In this document: in pieces, positions 1-7,608 of the stretch | Layout: every line of letters begins with the position of its first letter | Numbering within the stretch: the stretch's first letter is position 1 | NCBI GenBank assembly: GCA_017541365.1 | Contig: JAFXZF010000067.1 | Location: 1 to 7,750, forward strand | Reading direction: 5' to 3' | DNA from: Prevotella sp. | GTDB lineage: Bacteria > Bacteroidota > Bacteroidia > Bacteroidales > Bacteroidaceae | Length of the DNA stretch: 7,750 nt | Made by a program: the position numbers and the translations under genes | Notes under the pieces: generated by a model | Database searches by the model: none | Told to the model about the DNA's origin: nothing | The model's input: the letters and a program-made list of their open reading frames with translations, nothing else

Positions 1-387
1 CAGGCACAATCACCCAGAGGTAATAATAATTTTCAACTTTCAATTCTCAATTTTCAATTTGACGGCAGCTTCGCAGCCGTCATAATCTCGGCACTTTTTT
101 TCGCTGGCGTACATTTCAATCCAGCACAGATGCCCCATGCCTTTATCGTAGGCTGCTTGTTAGGTTGGCTCTTTGTGCGCACCAATAGCATCGTGCCTGG
201 CTTCATCCTCCATTGGATAAACAACTCTGCCGCATACGTAGCAGTAAAGATGTTTCCACACATGCCGATGGATGCTCCCTTGGTTAGTTACTTTGGTTCT
301 ACAGCGGCAGTAGTGCAGGCAGTTGTCTGCTCACTCATGATTGCCCTGCCTGCCCTCTATCAACTCAATAGAGTGCTGAAGAAATAA
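1..387 (+). CDS. CPBP family intramembrane metalloprotease, C-terminal part (5' end outside window)
   Basis: The frame is open from base 1 to the TAA at 385-387, giving 128 visible residues with the start outside the window. Two of the three CPBP (Abi/CAAX protease-like) motifs are visible: FxxxH as FAGVH at fragment residues 34-38, followed by FNPAQMP, and HxxxN as HWINN at 71-75. The first motif (EExxxR) would lie upstream of the window. Hydrophobic segments around residues 24-38, 47-70 and 97-118 fit membrane helices. Members are integral membrane proteins; the His, Asn and Glu residues are thought to form the active site, and substrates are mostly unknown. A run at residues 10-20 (roughly FQLSILNFQF) is encoded by 7-bp repeats identical in style to those in the non-coding DNA here. 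It falls in the linker between the expected motif-1 helix and the motif-2 helix. The family call is solid; the substrate is unknown. Confidence 0.86.
   Translation, partial: QAQSPRGNNNFQLSILNFQFDGSFAAVIISALFFAGVHFNPAQMPHAFIVGCLLGWLFVRTNSIVPGFILHWINNSAAYVAVKMFPHMPMDAPLVSYFGSTAAVVQAVVCSLMIALPALYQLNRVLKK
30..60 (+). repeat. 7-bp tandem repeat inside the CPBP coding region
   Basis: Four consecutive 7-bp units start at 30, 37, 44 and 51 (TTTTCAA, CTTTCAA, TTCTCAA, TTTTCAA), followed by TTT. The tract reads through in the CPBP frame. In this orientation none of the three frames contains a stop; the reverse complement has TGA in every frame. The same unit type occurs in non-coding DNA at 5598-5625 and 7319-7346. 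Confidence 0.85.
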
Positions 388-402
388 TAGTATTATTATA
401 CG

Positions 403-438
403 AATAAAGGCTGGAACCTTTTGGTTTCAGCCTTTATT
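403..438. terminator. Bidirectional intrinsic terminator between convergent genes
   Basis: Bases 403-418 pair with 423-438 through 16 pairs (one G-T) around a TTTT loop. The outer ten pairs are AATAAAGGCT with AGCCTTTATT. The A/T-rich outer stem leaves T-rich tracts on both strands, so it can end the CPBP transcript and the minus-strand gene cluster. The WbqC stop codon (427-429) lies in one arm, so the last WbqC codons are part of the terminator. Confidence 0.88.
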
Positions 439-1095
439 GTTTCTTAGATAGAGTATGGTCTCTGGTCCCTCGTTGAAAAGAAGGTCAAGGATGGAGAGAC
501 CAGAGATAAAGCCGTGACGACGTTGGAAGGTTTGGTAGTAATGAACGGGAACGTGAACGGGAACGTGAACAACTCTTCCCCCTTGTGGTGGAGTTGAGGG
601 GAGGCTCGTTAGTTTTATTTCTTTCTTTGCCCCGATTAAATCCAGCATTTTCCTCATTATGGCAAGATTATAGTCGAAGAGGTGCTGCCAGTTGTTAGCC
701 TTGAAGGTTTCCTCATCAAAGAAAGGGTAGATGTCATCCTTATAGTAATCAAAAAATGGTGACATACCGTAAGCACTCTTCAGTGCCTCCCAGTGCTGAT
801 GACGCCAGTTGCCATGCTCGCTGACGAGAACCTCCTTAACGTTAACCTTAACCTTAACTTCTTGAACTAGCGCGTCAGCGCGACTTGAACCTCCTTGAAC
901 CAGAGCCGCAGGCTCGTTTGAACTCCTTGAACCGCGAAGCTCTCGTCCCTTCGTCGTGACGGGCACCGTCAGTATCTGCTTACCATTCGCCGTTGCTATC
1001 TCGCAACGGTTACGAGAAGTTTGTTTGATGTAGCTCTCGTGAGCATCAATATACACGGTTTCATCGGTACTGAACAATTGCCTGTACCAATCCAC
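427..1095 (-). CDS. WbqC family protein (glycan-biosynthesis-associated), start uncertain
   Basis: Family signatures: IDAHESYIKQTSRNRCEIA at about residues 16-34, NWRHQHWEALKSAYG at 96-110 followed by SPFFDYYKDDIYPFF, and the C-terminal YYQTFQRRHGF..LSILDLLFNEGPETILYL. WbqC proteins are cytosolic and often associated with polysaccharide or O-antigen genes; their chemistry is poorly defined. GTG at 1093-1095 is the only ATG/GTG/TTG available, but it is probably not the true N-terminus. The frame continues upstream and encodes VLHTTYFGS directly before VDWYRQLF, matching the usual WbqC N-terminus (hydrophobic-P-TTYFG-type). The frame stays open back to 1206 without an ATG, GTG or TTG; ATC at 1125-1123 would give the usual length. 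Two in-frame repeat tracts interrupt the family pattern, at residues ~51-86 and 175-185. It is the last gene of the minus-strand cluster. Confidence 0.82.
   Translation of the reverse strand: MDWYRQLFSTDETVYIDAHESYIKQTSRNRCEIATANGKQILTVPVTTKGRELRGSRSSNEPAALVQGGSSRADALVQEVKVKVNVKEVLVSEHGNWRHQHWEALKSAYGMSPFFDYYKDDIYPFFDEETFKANNWQHLFDYNLAIMRKMLDLIGAKKEIKLTSLPSTPPQGGRVVHVPVHVPVHYYQTFQRRHGFISGLSILDLLFNEGPETILYLRNNKG
541..570 (-). repeat. 6-bp tandem repeat in WbqC coding region (VHVPVHVPVH)
   Basis: Five 6-bp units alternate RTGAAC and GGGAAC on the plus strand. Read from the minus strand they encode a Val-His/Val-Pro alternation directly before the conserved YYQTF. The region is normally a variable linker in the family. 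The unit has a constant GAAC with two variable bases. Confidence 0.8.
835..947 (-). repeat. Composite in-frame repeat tract in WbqC (stem-loops, GTTCAAG motifs, 6-bp repeats)
   Basis: On the coding strand, GTTCAAG motifs alternate with small palindromes, followed by four GTTAAG-type 6-bp units (835-858). Palindromes on the plus strand are GAGCC-GCA-GGCTC at 903-915 and GCGC-GTCA-GCGC at 870-881. The tract encodes about 36 residues (~51-86), ending VQEVKVKVNVKE. It lies between LTVPVTTKG and VLVSEHGNW, where WbqC proteins normally have a short loop. Two blocks are shared with the helicase tract at 2844-2998. Confidence 0.85.
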
Positions 1096-1151
1096 ACTGC
1101 CGAAATATGTTGTATGTAAAACGATAACGTGTTGTACGTTTAAAAGAGTAG

Positions 1152-3101
1152 TTACTTCTTTTTCTTTGGTCTGCGACGAGCCCAGCCCTCTTCCTGTCCA
1201 AGCATCTCAAAGAGAGCCTTGCGTTCATCAAAGGCTTTCTTGCGAGCCGCATTGTCACGTCCCCTGCGAGTGGATTCCGTATTGTCAGGCTGAAAGTCTT
1301 TGCTCTTGCCCTGTGGACGAGCCTTCTTCTCGCTATCCTCCCTGCACGTTACTTTCTTGTTGTGATAAAAAGCGTGGCTGAGTGCCTTGATAACTTTCTT
1401 GGCATCCTTGGTGGGCACTTCGATGAGACAGAATGTAGGCATGATGTCGATATGTCCCACATCCTGCCTGCCTGGCACGTTGCGATTGATAAACTGCATC
1501 ACCTCGCCAGGGAAGAAACGGTCGTTTCTGCCAAGGTTGATGAAGAGTTTGGTATAACCCTTCTGCACTCCCTCGCGCGGTTTCTTTGCTTTCCAGTCCG
1601 TGCCGCCTTTGTCCTTCTTTTCCTTCTTGCTGAGCACCACCTCCTCTATCTCTGGAGCATTGGCATAATACTGCAGGAAGCGGCCAAACTCGCGGCTCAC
1701 CACCTTCTTGAGTATCTCCTCCTTATCCACATACTCGAAGTGGCGGCGTATCTCCGTCATGAAAGGCTCTATCTGCTCATCGTCAACGTCAGTTTTCTCG
1801 ATTTCATCGATAGCGCGAAACAGTTGCTTAGTACATATCTCCTCTGCCGTAGGTATCCTGCCTGCCACGAAAGTCTTGCCGATAATCTTCTCCACCTCGC
1901 GCACCTTGTGGCGCTCACGGCTGTGTATGATGGCGATGGACGTACCCTTCTTGCCTGCCCTGCCCGTTCTGCCTGAGCGATGGGTGTATGACTCGGTGTC
2001 ATCAGGCATGGAGTAGTTGATGACGTGCGTGAGGTCGTTGACATCCAAACCACGTGCCGCCACGTCTGTTGCCACGAGGAGTTGTGTCAGGTGATTGCGG
2101 AAGCGCTGCATCGCCAGGTCACGCTGCTGCTGCGACAGGTCGCCATGCAGAGCCTCAGCGTTATATCCCTCCTTGATGAGTTTGTCGGCAATCTCCTGTG
2201 TCTCTATCTTTGTTCTGCAGAATATGATGCCGTATATCCTCGGATTATAGTCCACCACACGTTTCAGTGCGAGGTATTTGTCCTTGGCGTTCACCATATA
2301 ATATATATGGTTGACGTTCTCCGCCCCCTCGTTGCGCGAACCCACCACTATCTCCTCATGGTTACTGAGGTATTTCTTCGCCACCTTCTCCACCTCCTTG
2401 CTCATCGTAGCAGAGAAGAGCAACGTCTGGTGTTCCTCTGGCAGAGCCTCAAAGATGGTGTTGATGCTATCCGAGAAACCCATGTTGAGCATCTCGTCCG
2501 CCTCGTCGAGCACTATATGGCTCACACCGTCGAGGTGTACCTTGCCACGTTCCATGAGGTCTATGAGTCTGCCTGGCGTCGCCACTATTATCTGTGCGCC
2601 GTGTCTTAGCGAGCGTATCTGGTCGCTGATGCTCGTCCCACCATACACCGCCACGATGTTGATGCCCTTGAGGTACTTGGAGAAGTCACGCAGGTCGTCC
2701 GTTATCTGCAGACACAGTTCTCGTGTGGGGGATAGCACAATAGCCTGCGTTGTGCGGTCTTTGGCGTTTATCCTCTGCAGCAGTGGCAGTCCGAATGCCG
2801 CCGTCTTGCCCGTACCCGTCTGTGCCAGGGCTATGAGGTCCTTGTTAACGTTAACCTTAACCTTAACCTTAACTTCTTGCTCCTCTTGAACCTTTGCTCC
2901 GAGCTTGCTCGCCTGAGCACCTACTGGAGCGCAAGAGCCTTCAAACTCTTGAACCAGAGCCGCAGACTCGCTTGAACTCTCTTGAACTCCTTGAACCAAG
3001 AAAGGTATCACCGCCTCCTGCACGGGCATGGGCTGTTCAAAGCCAAGCTCATCGATGGCGTGGCATATTTCAGGTATTATACCCAGTTCTTCAAAACTCA
3101 T
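1152..3101 (-). CDS. DEAD-box ATP-dependent RNA helicase with DbpA-like RNA-binding domain
   Basis: This 649-residue protein shows all core motifs: the Q-motif region with Gln28, AQTGTGKT (93-100, Walker A), PTRELCLQ (125-132), TPGR (175-178), DEAD (199-202), SAT (230-232), VATDVAARGLD (343-353) and HRSGRTGR (374-381). Residues ~516-588, starting YTKLFINLGRNDRFFPGEVMQFI, resemble the DbpA RNA-binding domain, followed by a Lys/Arg-rich tail. It should unwind RNA with ATP in ribosome assembly, cold response or mRNA decay (DeaD/CsdA- or DbpA-type). ATG at 3101 places the Q motif at the normal distance. It lies 50 bp downstream of RNase R on the same strand, which fits joint RNA decay. An insertion of ~49 residues (38-86) separates IPFLVQG from DLIALAQTGTGKT; other DEAD proteins usually have only a residue or two there. 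The exact paralogue (deaD, rhlE or dbpA) is not resolvable. Confidence 0.95.
   Translation of the reverse strand: MSFEELGIIPEICHAIDELGFEQPMPVQEAVIPFLVQGVQESSSESAALVQEFEGSCAPVGAQASKLGAKVQEEQEVKVKVKVNVNKDLIALAQTGTGKTAAFGLPLLQRINAKDRTTQAIVLSPTRELCLQITDDLRDFSKYLKGINIVAVYGGTSISDQIRSLRHGAQIIVATPGRLIDLMERGKVHLDGVSHIVLDEADEMLNMGFSDSINTIFEALPEEHQTLLFSATMSKEVEKVAKKYLSNHEEIVVGSRNEGAENVNHIYYMVNAKDKYLALKRVVDYNPRIYGIIFCRTKIETQEIADKLIKEGYNAEALHGDLSQQQRDLAMQRFRNHLTQLLVATDVAARGLDVNDLTHVINYSMPDDTESYTHRSGRTGRAGKKGTSIAIIHSRERHKVREVEKIIGKTFVAGRIPTAEEICTKQLFRAIDEIEKTDVDDEQIEPFMTEIRRHFEYVDKEEILKKVVSREFGRFLQYYANAPEIEEVVLSKKEKKDKGGTDWKAKKPREGVQKGYTKLFINLGRNDRFFPGEVMQFINRNVPGRQDVGHIDIMPTFCLIEVPTKDAKKVIKALSHAFYHNKKVTCREDSEKKARPQGKSKDFQPDNTESTRRGRDNAARKKAFDERKALFEMLGQEEGWARRRPKKKK
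2844..2998 (-). repeat. Composite in-frame repeat tract between Q motif and Walker A of the helicase
   Basis: Coding strand: several GTTCAAG motifs, an imperfect palindrome (plus strand 2958-2970, GAGCC-GCA-GACTC), a palindrome CGAGC-TT-GCTCG at 2900-2911, then five 6-bp units at 2844-2873 (GTTAAC twice and CTTAAC three times on the plus strand). The product is rich in VQE, Ser and Ala and ends EVKVKVKVNVN. The order of parts is the same as in the WbqC tract. Confidence 0.87.
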
Positions 3102-3114
3102 CTATTTCCTTTTT

Positions 3115-3151
3115 AACTGTGAACTGTGAACTGTGAATTGTGAATTGTGAA
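3115..3151. repeat. 7-bp tandem repeat between RNase R and helicase genes
   Basis: AACTGTG occurs three times (3115, 3122, 3129) and AATTGTG twice (3136, 3143), then a diverging unit begins at 3150 and runs into the RNase R stop codon (3152-3154). The tract fills most of the 50-bp spacer between two co-directional genes. It is related to the 7-bp units at 4481-4515 and 7450-7477. Confidence 0.9.
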
Positions 3152-5473
3152 TTATTCCACTATCGTAAAGTCCAGTTGTTTTTTCTCCAAGTTTGCCTTT
3201 GCCACCTTTATGCGCACCTCGTCGCCCAGTTGGTAGCGGTTATGATGGCGACGGCCCACGAGGCAGAAGTTTTTCTCGTCAAACTCATAGTAGTCGTCCT
3301 TCAAGTCATGTATCGCTATCATACCCTCGCAGTGATTTTCATCGATTTCAGCGTATATTCCGTGGCTTGTGATACCCGATACGTGAGCATCATACTCCTC
3401 GCCGAGGTGTTCGCCCATAAACTCCACCATCTTGTACTTTATAGAGTCACGCTCAGCATTAGCCGCCACCTGTTCCATCTGGCTGGAGTGCTCGCACAGT
3501 TCCTCGTAATAGTTCTGGTTGGCACTCTTTCCTCCCTCCTCGTAGCGTGTCAGCAGTCTGTGCACCATAGTGTCGGGATAGCGTCGTATGGGCGACGTGA
3601 AGTGGGTGTAGTAGTCAAATGCCAGTCCGAAGTGCCCTATGTTGTGCGTGCTATACTTCGCCTTCATCATCGCTTTCAGCGCCACGAGCTGTATGGCGTT
3701 GCTCTCTGCCCTACCCTCAAACTCATCCATCAGCGCATTGAGAGCACGTGCCGTAGCGCCCTTGGTGCTCGTTGACTTCATCCTATATCCGAAGCGCACC
3801 ACAAACTGTTTCAGCTGTTCCATCTTGATAGGGTCAGGATTGTCGTGCACGCGGTATGGCAGTGTCTTCGCCTTCTTACCCTTAGGCACCTTTCCCACGC
3901 TCTCCGCCACCGTCTTGTTGGCTATGAGCATAAACTCCTCTATGAGTTTGTTGGCATCCTTTGAACGCTTGAAATATACCCTTGTCGGCTTGCCCTTCTC
4001 ATCGATGTCGAAGCGCATCTCCTCGCGGTCAAACTTCACCGAACCGTTCTTAAATCTCCTTGCCCTTAGTTTCTTGGCGAGGGCATCGAGGGTTATGAGT
4101 TCCTTGGCATATTCGCCCTCATACTCTTTTTTCTTTGGTGCAGGCTCGCCTGTGCCGTCCTTCACCCCGTTCCTCTCCAGTATCTCCTGCACCTCTTCGT
4201 AGCAGAAGCGGCGGTCGCTCCTTATCACCGTGTGCACTATGCGGTAGTCCTTTATCTCCGCCTCCTCGTCCATGGTGAATATCACCGAGTACGCCAGTTT
4301 GTCCTCGTCAGGCCTCAGCGAACAGATGTAGTTGCACAGCCTCTCAGGCAACATCGGTATCGTCCTGTCCACGAGGTATATGCTCGTAGCCCTCTTCTGC
4401 GCCTCCTTATCGATTATCGATCCCTCCGTCACGTAGTGGCTCACGTCAGCGATGTGCACGCCAACCTCATAAAGTTTTTTCAGTTCACAGTGCTCAGTGC
4501 TCAGTTCACAGTTAGAGTTATCGTTAAGGTTATGGTTAAGGTTATGGTTATGGTTATCGTTATGGTTATGGTTATCGTTAAGGTTAAGGTTAAGGTTATG
4601 GTTAAGGTTAACCTCCCTTATACTCAGTGCATCGTCAAAATCCTTGGCATCATGCGGATCTATCGTACATGTGAATACCCCACGAAAATCCTCTCTGCGG
4701 TCTATCTCCTCCTGTGTTATCACGTCGCTTATCTTGTTGGCGGCATCCTCCACAGCCTGCGGGTATTTATATGGCAGTCCATACTGAGCCAGTATAGCAT
4801 TCATCTCAGCGTTGTTTTCGCCCATTTCACCGAGTATATCCACCACTTCCGCCAGTATGTTGCGGTGCTCGGCATCAGGCCATGCCACCACCTTCACCAC
4901 GGCGCGGTCGTTGGTCTTGCCGCCCTTGAGTTTCGACTTAGGTATTATGATACTCATCGCCAGCGGCTCCTGAGGTATGAGGAATGCGAGGTCGCTGTCC
5001 ACCTCCAGCCTGCCCACAAACTGTTCCTTCTTTCTCTCTATAATCTCTATCACCTGTGCCTCGCGTATATGGCTGCGTCGGCGTGCCATCATGCAGAAGC
5101 GCACCCTGTCGCCCGTCAGAGCCCACAGTGAGTTTCTCTCCGCCACGAATATAGGTTTCTCACTACCCACTGGCGTCACCGTATTACGTCCGTTGGCCTT
5201 AGCCTGGAACACGCCCTCCATCACCTGTGTGCTGTCCGCCAGTTTGTACGATGAGTCCGTCACTTTTACCAGGTAGTCATCCCATGCCATCTCCTCCATG
5301 ATGTCGATGGCGAGCATCTTCATGGGGTGCGTGTCGAGCTTCAACTGTCTGAACACTTCCTTAAACGATACCACCTGTCCCGGACGGCTGTTAAAGAACG
5401 CCTCCAGTTTCTCTGCCAACAGCGGCCTCGTGATTCTCTTGCCGCCCTTCTTTTCTCTTGTTTTCTTTCCCAT
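3152..5473 (-). CDS. rnr: Ribonuclease R (RNB/S1 exoribonuclease)
   Basis: This 773-residue protein has the RNase R order: N-terminal winged-helix region (~14-75), two cold-shock domains (~85-240), RNB catalytic domain (~260-600) and S1 domain (~690-770). The catalytic cluster IDPHDAKDFDDA has Asp272, Asp278, Asp280 and Asp281, the Mg2+-binding residues of the family. HFTSPIRRYPD at 624-634 is the other conserved RNB segment. It degrades RNA 3'-to-5', including structured RNA, and acts in mRNA and rRNA quality control. AGGAG lies just 2 bases before the ATG at 5473, an unusually recognisable but tightly spaced ribosome site. Odd feature: residues ~288-333 are a repeat-encoded Asn-rich run (NLNHNLNLN... 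then CELSTEHCEL), placed between DDALSIRE and LYEVGVHIADVSHYV. Most RNase R proteins have only a short turn there. All catalytic residues are intact, so activity is expected. Confidence 0.96.
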   Translation of the reverse strand: MGKKTREKKGGKRITRPLLAEKLEAFFNSRPGQVVSFKEVFRQLKLDTHPMKMLAIDIMEEMAWDDYLVKVTDSSYKLADSTQVMEGVFQAKANGRNTVTPVGSEKPIFVAERNSLWALTGDRVRFCMMARRRSHIREAQVIEIIERKKEQFVGRLEVDSDLAFLIPQEPLAMSIIIPKSKLKGGKTNDRAVVKVVAWPDAEHRNILAEVVDILGEMGENNAEMNAILAQYGLPYKYPQAVEDAANKISDVITQEEIDRREDFRGVFTCTIDPHDAKDFDDALSIREVNLNHNLNLNLNDNHNHNDNHNHNLNHNLNDNSNCELSTEHCELKKLYEVGVHIADVSHYVTEGSIIDKEAQKRATSIYLVDRTIPMLPERLCNYICSLRPDEDKLAYSVIFTMDEEAEIKDYRIVHTVIRSDRRFCYEEVQEILERNGVKDGTGEPAPKKKEYEGEYAKELITLDALAKKLRARRFKNGSVKFDREEMRFDIDEKGKPTRVYFKRSKDANKLIEEFMLIANKTVAESVGKVPKGKKAKTLPYRVHDNPDPIKMEQLKQFVVRFGYRMKSTSTKGATARALNALMDEFEGRAESNAIQLVALKAMMKAKYSTHNIGHFGLAFDYYTHFTSPIRRYPDTMVHRLLTRYEEGGKSANQNYYEELCEHSSQMEQVAANAERDSIKYKMVEFMGEHLGEEYDAHVSGITSHGIYAEIDENHCEGMIAIHDLKDDYYEFDEKNFCLVGRRHHNRYQLGDEVRIKVAKANLEKKQLDFTIVE
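4481..4515 (-). repeat. 7-bp tandem repeat inside the RNase R coding region
   Basis: Five 7-bp units on the plus strand start at 4481, 4488, 4495, 4502 and 4509 (CAGTTCA, CAGTGCT, CAGTGCT, CAGTTCA, CAGTTAG). On the coding strand they give NCELSTEHCEL. The same unit (TGAACTG when reversed) forms the non-coding array at 3115-3151. In the RNase R frame the tract is open, while both other frames hit TGA. Confidence 0.85.
4517..4612 (-). repeat. Sixteen-unit 6-bp repeat in RNase R encoding an Asn-alternating run
   Basis: Sixteen uninterrupted 6-bp units on the plus strand have a constant GTTA followed by AG, TG, TC or AC. On the coding strand each unit ends TAAC, so every second residue is Asn, alternating with Leu, His, Asp or Val. 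The orientation is opposite to the related arrays in the helicase and WbqC genes, although all three genes lie on the same strand. Confidence 0.95.
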
Positions 5474-5497
5474 AACTCCTATTACTTTGTACGAAAC

Positions 5498-5590
5498 GTC
5501 ACTTCGTGACTACGATACGCCTTCGGCTACGATACGCTGACGCTACGATACGGGGCTAAAGCCCCTACAATACGTCACTTCGTGACTACG
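5498..5590. repeat. Intergenic array of five tiny stem-loops separated by TACGATACG
   Basis: Between the S41 protease and RNase R genes, five short palindromes are separated by a 9-bp spacer (TACGATACG at 5511, 5528 and 5544; TACAATACG at 5566). The palindromes are GTCAC-TTC-GTGAC (5498-5510 and again 5574-5586), GCC-TTC-GGC (5519-5527), CGCTGACGC (5535-5543) and GGGGC-TAAA-GCCCC (5552-5565). A final TACG ends the array at 5590. It is expected to be transcribed if the genes form one operon, and could then influence termination or mRNA stability. No coding potential is apparent. Confidence 0.9.
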
Positions 5591-5597
5591 AAAACTG

Positions 5598-5625
5598 TCA
5601 ATTTTCAATTTTCAATTATCAATTT
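5598..5625. repeat. 7-bp tandem repeat overlapping the 3' end of the S41 protease gene
   Basis: Four 7-bp units (TCAATTT, TCAATTT, TCAATTA, TCAATTT) start at 5598, 5605, 5612 and 5619. The first bases of the second unit, reversed, are the TGA stop of the S41 gene (5605-5607). The last codons of the gene (IIEN) are also repeat-encoded. Confidence 0.9.
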
Positions 5626-7317
5626 ACCAATCTCCTCCACTGCCCGCTTCACCTGCGTGTCTTCCCTCAGCATGCACGCTATCTTACCCCTTTGGTAGTA
5701 GTATGCCGTGATGATCTCCTGTTCCAGCATGTGCGTTATCATCTCGCGGTTGTTGTCCAGTTCACGTTCCAGGTTATGCTGCAGTTTCTTTTCCAGTGCA
5801 TCAAACTCACCCTTCGCTTCATCGTAGTAGCCCTCAAACTTTGCTATCTCTACGAGTTTGTCATACACCTTGCTCGTCTCGCGGTCATACTTGAAGCCAC
5901 TCTCCATCACCCTTCTCTTGAAGTCGGCGTAGTCGCTCTCCGTGATGTGAAACTCCTCCACTGGTGCTATCCTCTCATGACTGTTCACGTAGTCCGTCAC
6001 GTAGTAGTGCACCACCTCCGTAGAGTCCAGCGCCCCACGGAAGAGGTACATCGTCAGGTTGGTCATCGTGTCGGGCTTCACCTCTATGTCGGGCATTATG
6101 CCGCCGCCGTCGCGCACCGTCCTGCCCTTGCGGGTCTTAAACTCCCTCGTCAGCGAGTCAGGTATATGCTCCCTGTATCCCCCTCCCGTATGTTTGTAGT
6201 TTACGGCCTGTATGCATCTGCCGCTCGGTATGTAGTATTTCGATACGGTGAGTTTCAGCGACCCGTCATGTGGCAGGTCGACCGTCTGCTGCACCAGTCC
6301 CTTGCCGTACGTCCTCGTGCCCATTATCACTGCCCTGTCGAGGTCCTGCAGCGACCCCGCCGTTATCTCGCTTGCCGATGCCGAACTCTCGTTTACCAGC
6401 ACCACTATGGGCATCACCGTGTCGAGCGGTTCCTGTTCCGTCACGTACACCTTGTTGGAGCGTTTCAGTTTGCCCTTTGTCGTCACCAGCGTCGTACCCT
6501 TCGGCACAAACATACCCGTTATCTTTATCGCCTCCTGCAGTGCACCACCTCCGTTGCCTCTCAGGTCAAACACCAGTCCCTTCATGCCCTTACTGCGCAT
6601 GTCTATCAGTGCACGGCGCACATCCCTCGAGCAGTCCTCCGTAAACTGTGTCAGCACCACGTAGCCCACGCTGTCATTCACCATGCCGTAGTACGGCACG
6701 CTGGGCAGCTGTATCGCCCTTCGCGTTATCTTTATCTTCAGCGTCTCCCCCTTTGCCTTTGAACTCCCTTGAACCTTTGAACTCCTTTGAACCAGCGAAG
6801 CGTCTTGAACTCCTTGAACCCTCTTGACCTTCAAGAGGAACGTCGTCCCAGGCTCACCCCTCAGATGGCTGCTCACGTATGCCACCTCTCTGTCCACCAT
6901 CGACGTATCGTCCACGGCGAGTATCACGTCGCCCTTGCGCAGTCCCGCCTCCGCGGCAGGCATACCCTCGTACAGCTCGTCTATCACCACCTGTCCCGTC
7001 CTGAGGTCTTTCTTTATCAGCGCCCCTATGCCCGCATACTTACCCGTCAGCATCTGTTTCAGGTTCTTCATGTCGCTCGCAGGGTAATACTCCGTGTAGG
7101 GGTCCAGCGAGTGCAGCATGGCATTGATGCCATAGCCCACCGTCTCGTCAGCATCCAGAGTATCCACATACATCATGTCGAGACTCTTGTATATAGCAGA
7201 AAACGTCTCCAGGTTTCTCGCCACCGCAAAGTTGTGGTTCTTCTCCTCACCATGCGCCACGGCCGCAAGCGCCATCAGCACCGCCACCATGCATATATAT
7301 CTTATCTTTCTCATCAT
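5605..7317 (-). CDS. Periplasmic S41 family C-terminal processing protease with PDZ domain
   Basis: The protein is 570 residues from the ATG at 7317 (a second ATG follows at 7314). This start gives a clean signal peptide: MMRKIRY, a hydrophobic stretch, then a likely signal peptidase I site after AVAHG (residue 23). No lipobox is seen. A PDZ domain covers ~92-200. The S41 core includes FDLRGNGGG (~250-258) and the Ser-Lys dyad: Ser314 in SASASE and Lys339 in YGKGLVQQ, 25 residues apart as in E. coli Prc. Ctp proteases cut exported or envelope proteins near their C-termini. An insertion at ~167-190 (VQGVQDASLVQ...), in the PDZ domain between LLKVKR and ETLKIKITR, is encoded by GTTCAAG-type repeats. 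The last residues and the stop lie in a 7-bp repeat. It is the first gene of the minus-strand cluster, with a -7 element just upstream. Confidence 0.94.
   Translation of the reverse strand: MMRKIRYICMVAVLMALAAVAHGEEKNHNFAVARNLETFSAIYKSLDMMYVDTLDADETVGYGINAMLHSLDPYTEYYPASDMKNLKQMLTGKYAGIGALIKKDLRTGQVVIDELYEGMPAAEAGLRKGDVILAVDDTSMVDREVAYVSSHLRGEPGTTFLLKVKRVQGVQDASLVQRSSKVQGSSKAKGETLKIKITRRAIQLPSVPYYGMVNDSVGYVVLTQFTEDCSRDVRRALIDMRSKGMKGLVFDLRGNGGGALQEAIKITGMFVPKGTTLVTTKGKLKRSNKVYVTEQEPLDTVMPIVVLVNESSASASEITAGSLQDLDRAVIMGTRTYGKGLVQQTVDLPHDGSLKLTVSKYYIPSGRCIQAVNYKHTGGGYREHIPDSLTREFKTRKGRTVRDGGGIMPDIEVKPDTMTNLTMYLFRGALDSTEVVHYYVTDYVNSHERIAPVEEFHITESDYADFKRRVMESGFKYDRETSKVYDKLVEIAKFEGYYDEAKGEFDALEKKLQHNLERELDNNREMITHMLEQEIITAYYYQRGKIACMLREDTQVKRAVEEIGKLIIEN
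6751..6837 (-). repeat. In-frame GTTCAAG-type repeat tract within the PDZ domain of the S41 protease
   Basis: Plus-strand TTGAAC motifs recur at irregular spacings of about 9-17 bp, with a GCGAAGC mini-palindrome between them. The tract ends in a perfect inverted repeat CTCTTGA-CCT-TCAAGAG (6821-6837). About 24 residues result. This is the same motif class as in the WbqC and helicase tracts but lacks the 6-bp array. Confidence 0.8.
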
Positions 7318-7318
7318 T

Positions 7319-7346
7319 TCAACTGTCAATTATCAATTATCAATTG
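7319..7346. repeat. 7-bp tandem repeat forming the leader of the S41 protease gene
   Basis: Four 7-bp units (TCAACTG, TCAATTA, TCAATTA, TCAATTG) start at 7319, 7326, 7333 and 7340. They end one base from the ATG at 7317. With the -7 element at 7351-7358, nearly the whole 5' untranslated region would be repeat DNA. No Shine-Dalgarno site is seen. Confidence 0.88.
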
Positions 7347-7523: not shown

Positions 7524-7597
7524 GCTTCCTTAGCTCAGTTGGTTAGAGCATCTGACTGTTAATCAGGGGGTCCTTGGTTCAAGCCCAAGAGGGAGCG
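7524..7597 (+). tRNA. tRNA-Asn (anticodon GTT)
   Basis: A complete 74-base cloverleaf. The acceptor stem is GCTTCCT with AGGGAGC (7 pairs, one G-T) and a G discriminator. The D arm is GCTC...GAGC, the anticodon stem is TCTGA/TCAGG, and the loop CTGTTAA places GTT at positions 34-36. The T stem CTTGG/CCAAG encloses the loop TTCAAGC. CCA is not encoded; GCGC follows. It reads AAC and AAU codons. Confidence 0.96.
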
Positions 7598-7608
7598 CGC
7601 TGAAAATC

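Follow-up and report, generated by a model that had tools for sequence, protein, structure and literature searches.

How do conserved protein genes come to hold short repeats that are read straight through in frame? The question is raised by a 7,750-nucleotide stretch of Prevotella sp. DNA (contig JAFXZF010000067.1 of assembly GCA_017541365.1; hereafter the window), whose five protein genes encode a CPBP protease (cut by the window edge), a WbqC-like protein, a DEAD-box RNA helicase, RNase R and an S41 protease. Comparison with related genomes points to several kinds of small repeat that recur across the genome, the clearest of them a 39-bp dispersed element lying in the helicase gene of the window. 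We consider it probable that these are selfish or neutral repeat modules, similar to the Rickettsia palindromic element (RPE) and the small dispersed repeat (SDR), which are filtered by selection.

Open reading frame (ORF) calls and Pfam profile searches on the window, combined with repeat detection by Tandem Repeats Finder (TRF), bear out the preliminary description in that all five genes hold repeat tracts, each of them stop-free and open in the gene's own frame. The CPBP (Rce1-like) gene (1–387, plus strand, PF02517), whose 5′ end lies beyond the window, carries a TTTCAAT-type heptamer tract of TRF period 7 at 28–60, read as NNNFQLSILNFQF, next to a small hairpin predicted by folding at ~62–80. 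The other four genes lie on the minus strand. The WbqC-like gene (427–1095, PF08889) has two tracts: a GTGAAC/GGGAAC hexamer tract at 541–570, read as VHVPVHVPVH and located by TRF and orthologue alignment, and a composite tract at 835–947 (TRF, alignment and folding), in which TTAACC-type hexamers are followed by CTTGAAC units and two hairpin modules. The helicase gene (1152–3101; DEAD, Helicase_C and DbpA) contains, upstream of the P-loop, a composite tract at 2844–2998 (TRF, alignment and AlphaFold) made of TTAACC hexamers, TTGAAC units, the 39-bp element and a hairpin module; the element itself, delimited by sequence matches, occupies 2897–2935 and has the antisense reading CAPVGAQASKLG. 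The RNase R gene (3152–5473; RNB, CSD2 and S1) holds heptamers and hexamers at 4481–4612, flanked by two strands of the RNB domain (TRF, comparison with a related genome, alignment and AlphaFold), and the S41 protease gene (5605–7329; PDZ and Peptidase_S41) a TTGAAC-type tract at 6751–6837 (TRF, Pfam and alignment), with the PDZ match on one side and the S41 domain match on the other. TRF repeats fell at 28–60, 542–570, 834–858, 2845–2873, 2966–2996, 4481–4513, 4517–4610 and 6756–6793, and the peptides predicted from tracts of this kind in Prevotella include VNLNLN, NLKPQTS and LRACSPEHLLER.

The tracts had also been placed at sites where relatives have a short loop. When the window genes were aligned with their 30 best orthologues each, mostly of the same genus and with six residues on each side included in all lengths, this held for four sites and failed for a fifth. 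The RNase R site measures 56 residues in the window and 13–16 in 23 of the 30 orthologues; the corresponding values are 64 vs 17–20 (28 of 30) for the helicase, 41 vs 20–21 (26 of 30) for the S41 protease and 50 vs 15–30 (29 of 30) for the WbqC tract at 835–947. At the WbqC tract at 541–570, however, the window has 22 residues where 27 of 30 orthologues have 29–31, mostly of a PKHP..D..F-like sequence. CPBP was left out of this comparison because the window begins inside the gene, and so does the matching contig of the nearest genome. In AlphaFold2 models of modest confidence (alignments of 25 and 22 sequences; mean pLDDT, the predicted local distance difference test, 66–67), residues 291–330 of RNase R have pLDDT <50 and are nearly devoid of secondary structure between strands 281–288 and 334–342, and residues 39–85 of the helicase, likewise <50 and unstructured, follow helix 26–39 and precede strand 88–92, just ahead of the P-loop. 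Both tracts are thus probably unstructured stretches, as far as these models go.

Is such a tract a fixed property of its protein? A search with RNase R gave a match in 57 of 60 genomes, but a single match spanned the tract only in G001, the Prevotella genome nearest to the window, and in G002 and G035; the remaining matches broke near residue 288 and restarted near 334, or covered the gene in part. In G009 and G475, whose RNase R is 82–90% identical, the match to the query ends at residue 288 and resumes at 334, indicating that a matching tract is lacking there. Other genera of the order mostly lack the tract as well, which agrees with the view of the preliminary description that the tract is an addition. 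In more distant Prevotella the same loop holds other repeats, e.g. SPLSSLHSPLTTPN, NLKPQTSNL, KDEGKKDEG and VESGKLKVESSGKL, and among the 119 proteins scored of the best 120 matches it measures 7–10 residues in 65, 11–19 in 34 and at least 20 in 20. A 918-residue RNase R (P0241) that resembled a giant tract was ruled out, as its extra length reflects a gene segment that is duplicated in tandem.

The tracts also differ between the window and G001, which share 91.7% nucleotide identity over the aligned region. In G001, the RNase R tract is 66 bp (11 hexamers) and the S41 tract 18 bp shorter, both WbqC tracts are altered, including the DNA at 541–570, and the helicase tract is almost identical. 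Outside the tracts, the ratio of nonsynonymous to synonymous substitution rates (dN/dS) is 0.03 for RNase R, 0.12 for the helicase, 0.09 for the S41 protease and 0.17 for WbqC, values that indicate purifying selection on the four complete genes. The nearest genomes are metagenome-assembled, and one could accordingly ask whether the tracts are an artefact of assembly. We regard this as extremely improbable, given that the tracts and the element are found again in assemblies made independently, that the frame is kept in the tracts and that the host genes have low dN/dS. A change by whole hexamers in RNase R, together with quite different repeats in the same loop of other Prevotella, is what would be expected if the tracts had simply grown in place by local slippage from chance seeds, the common units then reflecting a polymerase bias for certain 6- or 7-mers. 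Two further sets of observations, the genome-wide survey and the 39-bp element, bear on this explanation.

The survey covered the first 20 kb of each of 39 G001 contigs (C1–C39; 374,277 known bases), in which a simple gene caller of our own, requiring an open frame, defined 264 genes (83% coding). TRF returned 299 rows for these stretches vs 6 in one Markov-3 randomisation, with period 7 in 109 and period 6 in 17. Periods 6 and 7 dominate, whereas slippage is expected to favour shorter units. Within genes, which make up 310,896 coding bases, there are 38 hexamer and heptamer arrays; 90 more, arrays at gene ends among them, are set against the remaining 63,381 bases, giving a density 11.6-fold higher outside genes than inside. 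At least one array was present in 28 of the 264 predicted genes, 24 of which have a Pfam domain; they include DXS, an ETF-domain protein, a POT transporter, an O-methyltransferase, a LacZ-type galactosidase and a protein resembling non-ribosomal peptide synthetases with three arrays, and in five genes (L067, L085, L086, L088 and L093) the array lies inside a single domain match. L7/L12 (L071) was discounted as a host, its alanine-rich hinge being natural. These counts, with orthologues mostly lacking the tracts at four sites and two tracts modelled as unstructured, support the proposal that the repeats are genome-wide and kept in frame and in loops, and the tracts foreseen in other genes of the genome are present in this nearest relative. 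The idea of one spreading repeat family did not survive: we find instead several tandem units, hairpin modules and the 39-bp dispersed element.

Repeats of this kind could be contingency loci, selected because they switch genes on and off by phase variation. Heptamer slippage within a gene would alter its reading frame, and 26 of the 107 heptamer arrays do lie in genes, the other 81 being outside genes or at gene ends. Yet it is hexamers that are enriched in genes (12 of 21 vs 26 of 107 heptamer arrays, Fisher p = 0.004; 11 of 20, p = 0.013, without L7/L12). In addition, the differences of 66 and 18 bp between the window and G001 are multiples of three, and the targets include housekeeping genes such as HemC-CobA-HemD and DXS, so that selection for switching appears very improbable indeed. 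Across the order, heptamer arrays are patchy: a triple of SAAYTNT was found in 130 of 295 genomes, with 0, 79 and 42 matches in members of genus g2 and 47 in one further genome; the reversed pattern is no null for this search, as it is almost identical read backwards. Two of the surveyed loci are unusual in themselves. The HemC-CobA-HemD fusion (L074:6763–8895) combines the 39-bp element with three heptamer tracts that lie apart from each other, with no separate HemC C-terminal domain match reported, and at L093:1737–3893 a POT transporter and a Ham1-type NTPase share one open frame, either as a read-through fusion or through assembly.

The 39-bp element first stands out as a non-tandem segment of the window helicase tract that is matched by seven loci of G001, one of which is the WbqC tract (99% over 67 bp). 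A search of 200 genomes of the genus, allowing ≤3 mismatches over 32 bases, found 52 copies in four genomes (6 in G001, 23 in G009, 20 in G475 and 3 in G488), and the reversed pattern, used as control, gave 0. For analysis, we compiled 54 copies by including the window and four weaker matches and leaving out three copies from G009. The conserved stretch starts sharply with TCCGAG and ends with GCGCAAG; in all 54 copies the following base is A, and in 43 a second A comes after it. Its length is 39 bp in 33 copies and 40 bp in 17, with 4 unclassified; 39 bp corresponds to 13 codons, and the element is open in four of the six frames. The arrays beside the copies vary (AACTGTG, AACGGG, CTTGAAC and CTACGAAACG types), suggesting that the element entered them separately. 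The right end GCGCAAG is constant in nearly all copies and the left flank variable, which speaks against a target site duplication, but at L308, where filled sites only were compared, GCAAG occurs on both sides. Some copies show two-sided changes in the inner hairpin, for example from GAGCTTGCTC to GAACTTGTTC. As a separate observation, in L010 and L335 (plus strand) and L319 and L334 (minus strand) the inner hairpin is replaced by another palindrome (CGCGAAGCG, CGCTTTGCG) and the rest is mostly the same, as in arrays with variable stems.

A non-tandem element that is near-identical at 52 places in 4 genomes, and whose 13 residues are exactly present or absent in one protein family (below), already contradicts local slippage as far as this element is concerned; as the sole origin of the repeats we consider slippage distinctly unlikely. 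The small size and hairpin potential of the element, and possibly the GTAG beside the inner hairpin on its antisense strand, recall repetitive extragenic palindromic (REP) sequences and REP doublets forming hairpins (REPINs), mobilised by the IS200-like Y1 transposase RAYT (REP-associated tyrosine transposase), and G488, with three copies, does have four Y1 genes. However, searches with Y1_Tnp (PF01797, IS200/RAYT-type) found no match in the three genomes richest in copies, G001, G009 and G475, which are 78, 90 and 91% complete, and of the 14 genomes tested that yielded no copy of the element, 8 do have Y1. We therefore rejected a RAYT/IS200 transposase as the mover, and consider a REPIN-like origin very unlikely.

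Where does the element lie relative to genes? A Pfam search covered 20 ORFs that contain or adjoin copies. In all, 12 copies in 11 genes were found to be in frame and flanked by conserved sequence on both sides, with all four open frames in use. The host genes encode the helicase (in the window and in G001), WbqC, HemC-CobA-HemD, an AAA helicase, a Pfam-M24 aminopeptidase, a permease, a DegT aminotransferase, QueE, a GH88 enzyme, LpxB and the L308 protein. The 39-bp type accounts for 11 of these 12 copies vs 22 of the 42 others (two-sided p = 0.018; 10 of 11, p = 0.035, without the window copy), in a grouping made by hand after the data had been seen and including the L355 copy, which has a degenerate left end. 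Other copies, judged by eye, fall in signal-peptide regions or C-termini (L334, L369, L366 and L331), and the remainder are intergenic or in unresolved ORFs. Two candidates were set aside. L356 had looked like a gene broken by the element, but a separate homoserine dehydrogenase gene follows it, so that a break is unproven; the C-terminus of L356 itself may be truncated. The long ORF around the element in L307 was excluded from the count, having matched neither Pfam nor NCBIfam.

The most exact case is provided by the L308 protein, which, like its homologue P0001, has KLRACSPEHLLERKNAESLG where other homologues have a single K, a difference of exactly 13 residues. The insert recurs in P0006, a member of a second lineage, and is missing from the near twins of that protein, P0035, P0042 and P0044. 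No carrier other than P0001 and P0006 appears among the 120 listed homologues, of which 49 were aligned. From these sequences, the site may either have been hit twice or have had an allele exchanged. In the LpxB loop that precedes LLLPGSRR, G475 has the element in one frame, P0145 has it in another frame, where it is itself interrupted, and P0146 has GTTCAAG-type units (28 of the 120 listed homologues aligned). The L308 gene also informs on whether array–array recombination, or gene conversion, could be the only copying process, with modules carried as cargo between flanking repeats. This would explain that the G001 WbqC and helicase tracts, 2 kb apart, each contain a 99% match to the window helicase tract, and that spacer units of an intergenic array at 5498–5582 have changed in concert. 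It is at odds with exactly 13 extra codons at an array-free site that is uninterrupted in homologues, and we hold it to be unlikely.

We thus return to repeat modules filtered by selection as the preferred explanation, in which two processes would be combined. Tandem arrays of 6 or 7 bases, many of them AA-led, would grow and shrink by slippage and recur genome-wide, and small modules would enter between tandem units, the clearest case being the 39-bp element, which is usually then followed by AA and may insert at G^AA. Intragenic copies would persist only where the frame is kept and the orientation is stop-free, mostly in a turn or linker; most other copies would be purged, frame- or fold-breaking ones being removed by selection, and recombination, together with slippage, would reshape the arrays. 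The outcome would be enzymes with additional, probably disordered, loops. This explanation builds on the observed arrays, element copies and length polymorphism, the exact 13-residue presence or absence and the purifying selection on host genes; from these we infer the copying mechanism and the neutrality of the tracts.

Several points weigh against this explanation. A filter on frame and orientation is apparent, as the frames of intragenic heptamers are open in 70 of 78 cases on the gene strand, 17 of 78 on the opposite strand and 154 of 486 elsewhere, but this bias is partly ascertainment because the gene caller requires an open frame and counts gene-breaking arrays as outside genes. Copying is demonstrated only for the 39-bp element, and the tandem units may partly stem from local slippage. 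Fewer than half of the element copies (25 of 54, vs 7.9% of random places) lie within a detectable 6/7-mer array, and no mobilising Y1 enzyme emerged from the three copy-richest genomes. The idea that the 39-bp element folds with unusual stability is unsupported, since 235 of 1000 shuffles fold as well or better, as do 22 of 200 for a longer window stretch. Low model confidence is not specific to the tracts, with pLDDT <50 in 214 of 773 and 174 of 649 residues in total, and translation of the tract loops is presumed from sequence. Finally, the WbqC repeat at 541–570 displaces a largely conserved segment and adds no extra loop, which implies that a tolerated tract is not always a spare loop. 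A more far-reaching proposal is that the 39-bp element is active, site-specific (G^AA) mobile DNA with an undescribed mechanism, which together with AA-led modules keeps adding peptides to loops of conserved Prevotella enzymes; we put this forward tentatively, as a serious possibility that we stop just short of favouring.

The intergenic parts of the window contain repeats as well. Between the helicase and RNase R genes, an AACTGTG/AATTGTG heptamer array was detected by TRF at 3115–3151, and G001 has a similar array at that place. The array at 5498–5582, characterised by folding and comparison with G001, consists of hairpins of variable stem separated by CTACGA(T/A)ACG-type spacers that are near-constant, CTACGATACG in the window and CTACGAAACG in the G001 counterpart (L059), one spacer base having changed in concert between the two genomes; the stems differ each time. 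The 19 distinct inserts of CTACGA-type arrays in the searched sequence have a mean longest stem of 3.2 vs 1.5 when shuffled. Further hairpins with variable stems (GCGCGTCAGCGC, GAGCCGCAGGCTC) lie between TTGAAC units at 861–918 and 2948–2975, and the 19 distinct TTGAAC-flanked inserts have a mean longest stem of 3.0 vs 2.2. Hairpins at 62–84 and 900–918 are each matched in folding by only 2 of 200 shuffles, whereas others in the tracts fold no better than shuffles. A TCAATTT/TCAATTA heptamer array at 5598–5625 encodes the stop codon and final residues KLIIEN of the S41 protease, whose C-terminus is thus set by the array. The window also holds a tRNA-Asn(gtt) gene (7524–7598, plus strand), which is not part of the phenomenon.

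Among the titles listed in literature searches that left most subscription papers outside their scope, none concerned these tracts or the 39-bp element in Prevotella. In-frame repeats in conserved proteins are known mainly from Rickettsia and from some bacterial miniature inverted-repeat transposable elements (MITEs), at ~100 bp or more, and Prevotella presents a smaller version. It does so in a common gut and rumen genus, in about one in ten predicted genes of one genome and with proteins with and without the insertion side by side, which allows one to measure which protein loops tolerate insertion in nature and to seek the mechanism that moves a 39-bp DNA. If the element is indeed an active G^AA mobile element, few coding mobile elements would be smaller, and it would constitute a natural, proteome-wide loop-insertion experiment.

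Heptamer arrays in cyanobacteria with embedded SDRs of 21–27 nt, termed short tandemly repeated repetitive (STRR) sequences, were reportedly described by Elhai in 2008. The Prevotella heptamer arrays resemble STRRs in being dispersed and mostly outside genes, and the element differs from SDRs in its length of 39–40 bp, in its host organism and in that at least 12 of 54 copies are in frame in conserved genes. Two reports record heptamer arrays from cyanobacteria and Xanthomonas as well as from Beggiatoaceae and a few Bacteroidetes (PMC4692102, PMC4679880), those of TAACTGA being sporadic and mostly intergenic in Beggiatoaceae, Cyanobacteria and five Bacteroidetes, with 24 sets in or overlapping ORFs in one genome (PMC4679880). 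TAACTGA arrays have one fixed unit, whereas those of Prevotella are built of several units, are tolerated in frame and have a dispersed element embedded in them. REPIN/RAYT systems are small hairpin elements dispersed in the genome (PMC3116915); the Y1 transposase not found in the three copy-richest Prevotella genomes sets the present element apart. Within Bacteroidales, Porphyromonas gingivalis has a minisatellite inside a MITE (PMC4596501), which is likewise a small repeat-bearing element. We take it to be the element named BrickBuilt. The report on RPEs also mentions Correia (107 bp) and enterobacterial repetitive intergenic consensus (ERIC, 127 bp) elements, which have in-frame intragenic copies, terminal inverted repeats and target duplications (PMC2229807). 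The in-frame intragenic copies are alike, and the greater length of those elements separates them from the present one. RPEs themselves are there described as palindromic repeats of 105–146 bp that occupy intergenic DNA as well as in-frame positions within conserved protein genes, and guanylate kinase, the only RPE-bearing host enzyme tested, was active with a changed substrate affinity (PMC2229807). The Prevotella element shares with RPEs its in-frame position within 11 conserved genes and differs from them in being a 39–40 bp unit that occurs together with arrays of 6- and 7-mers.

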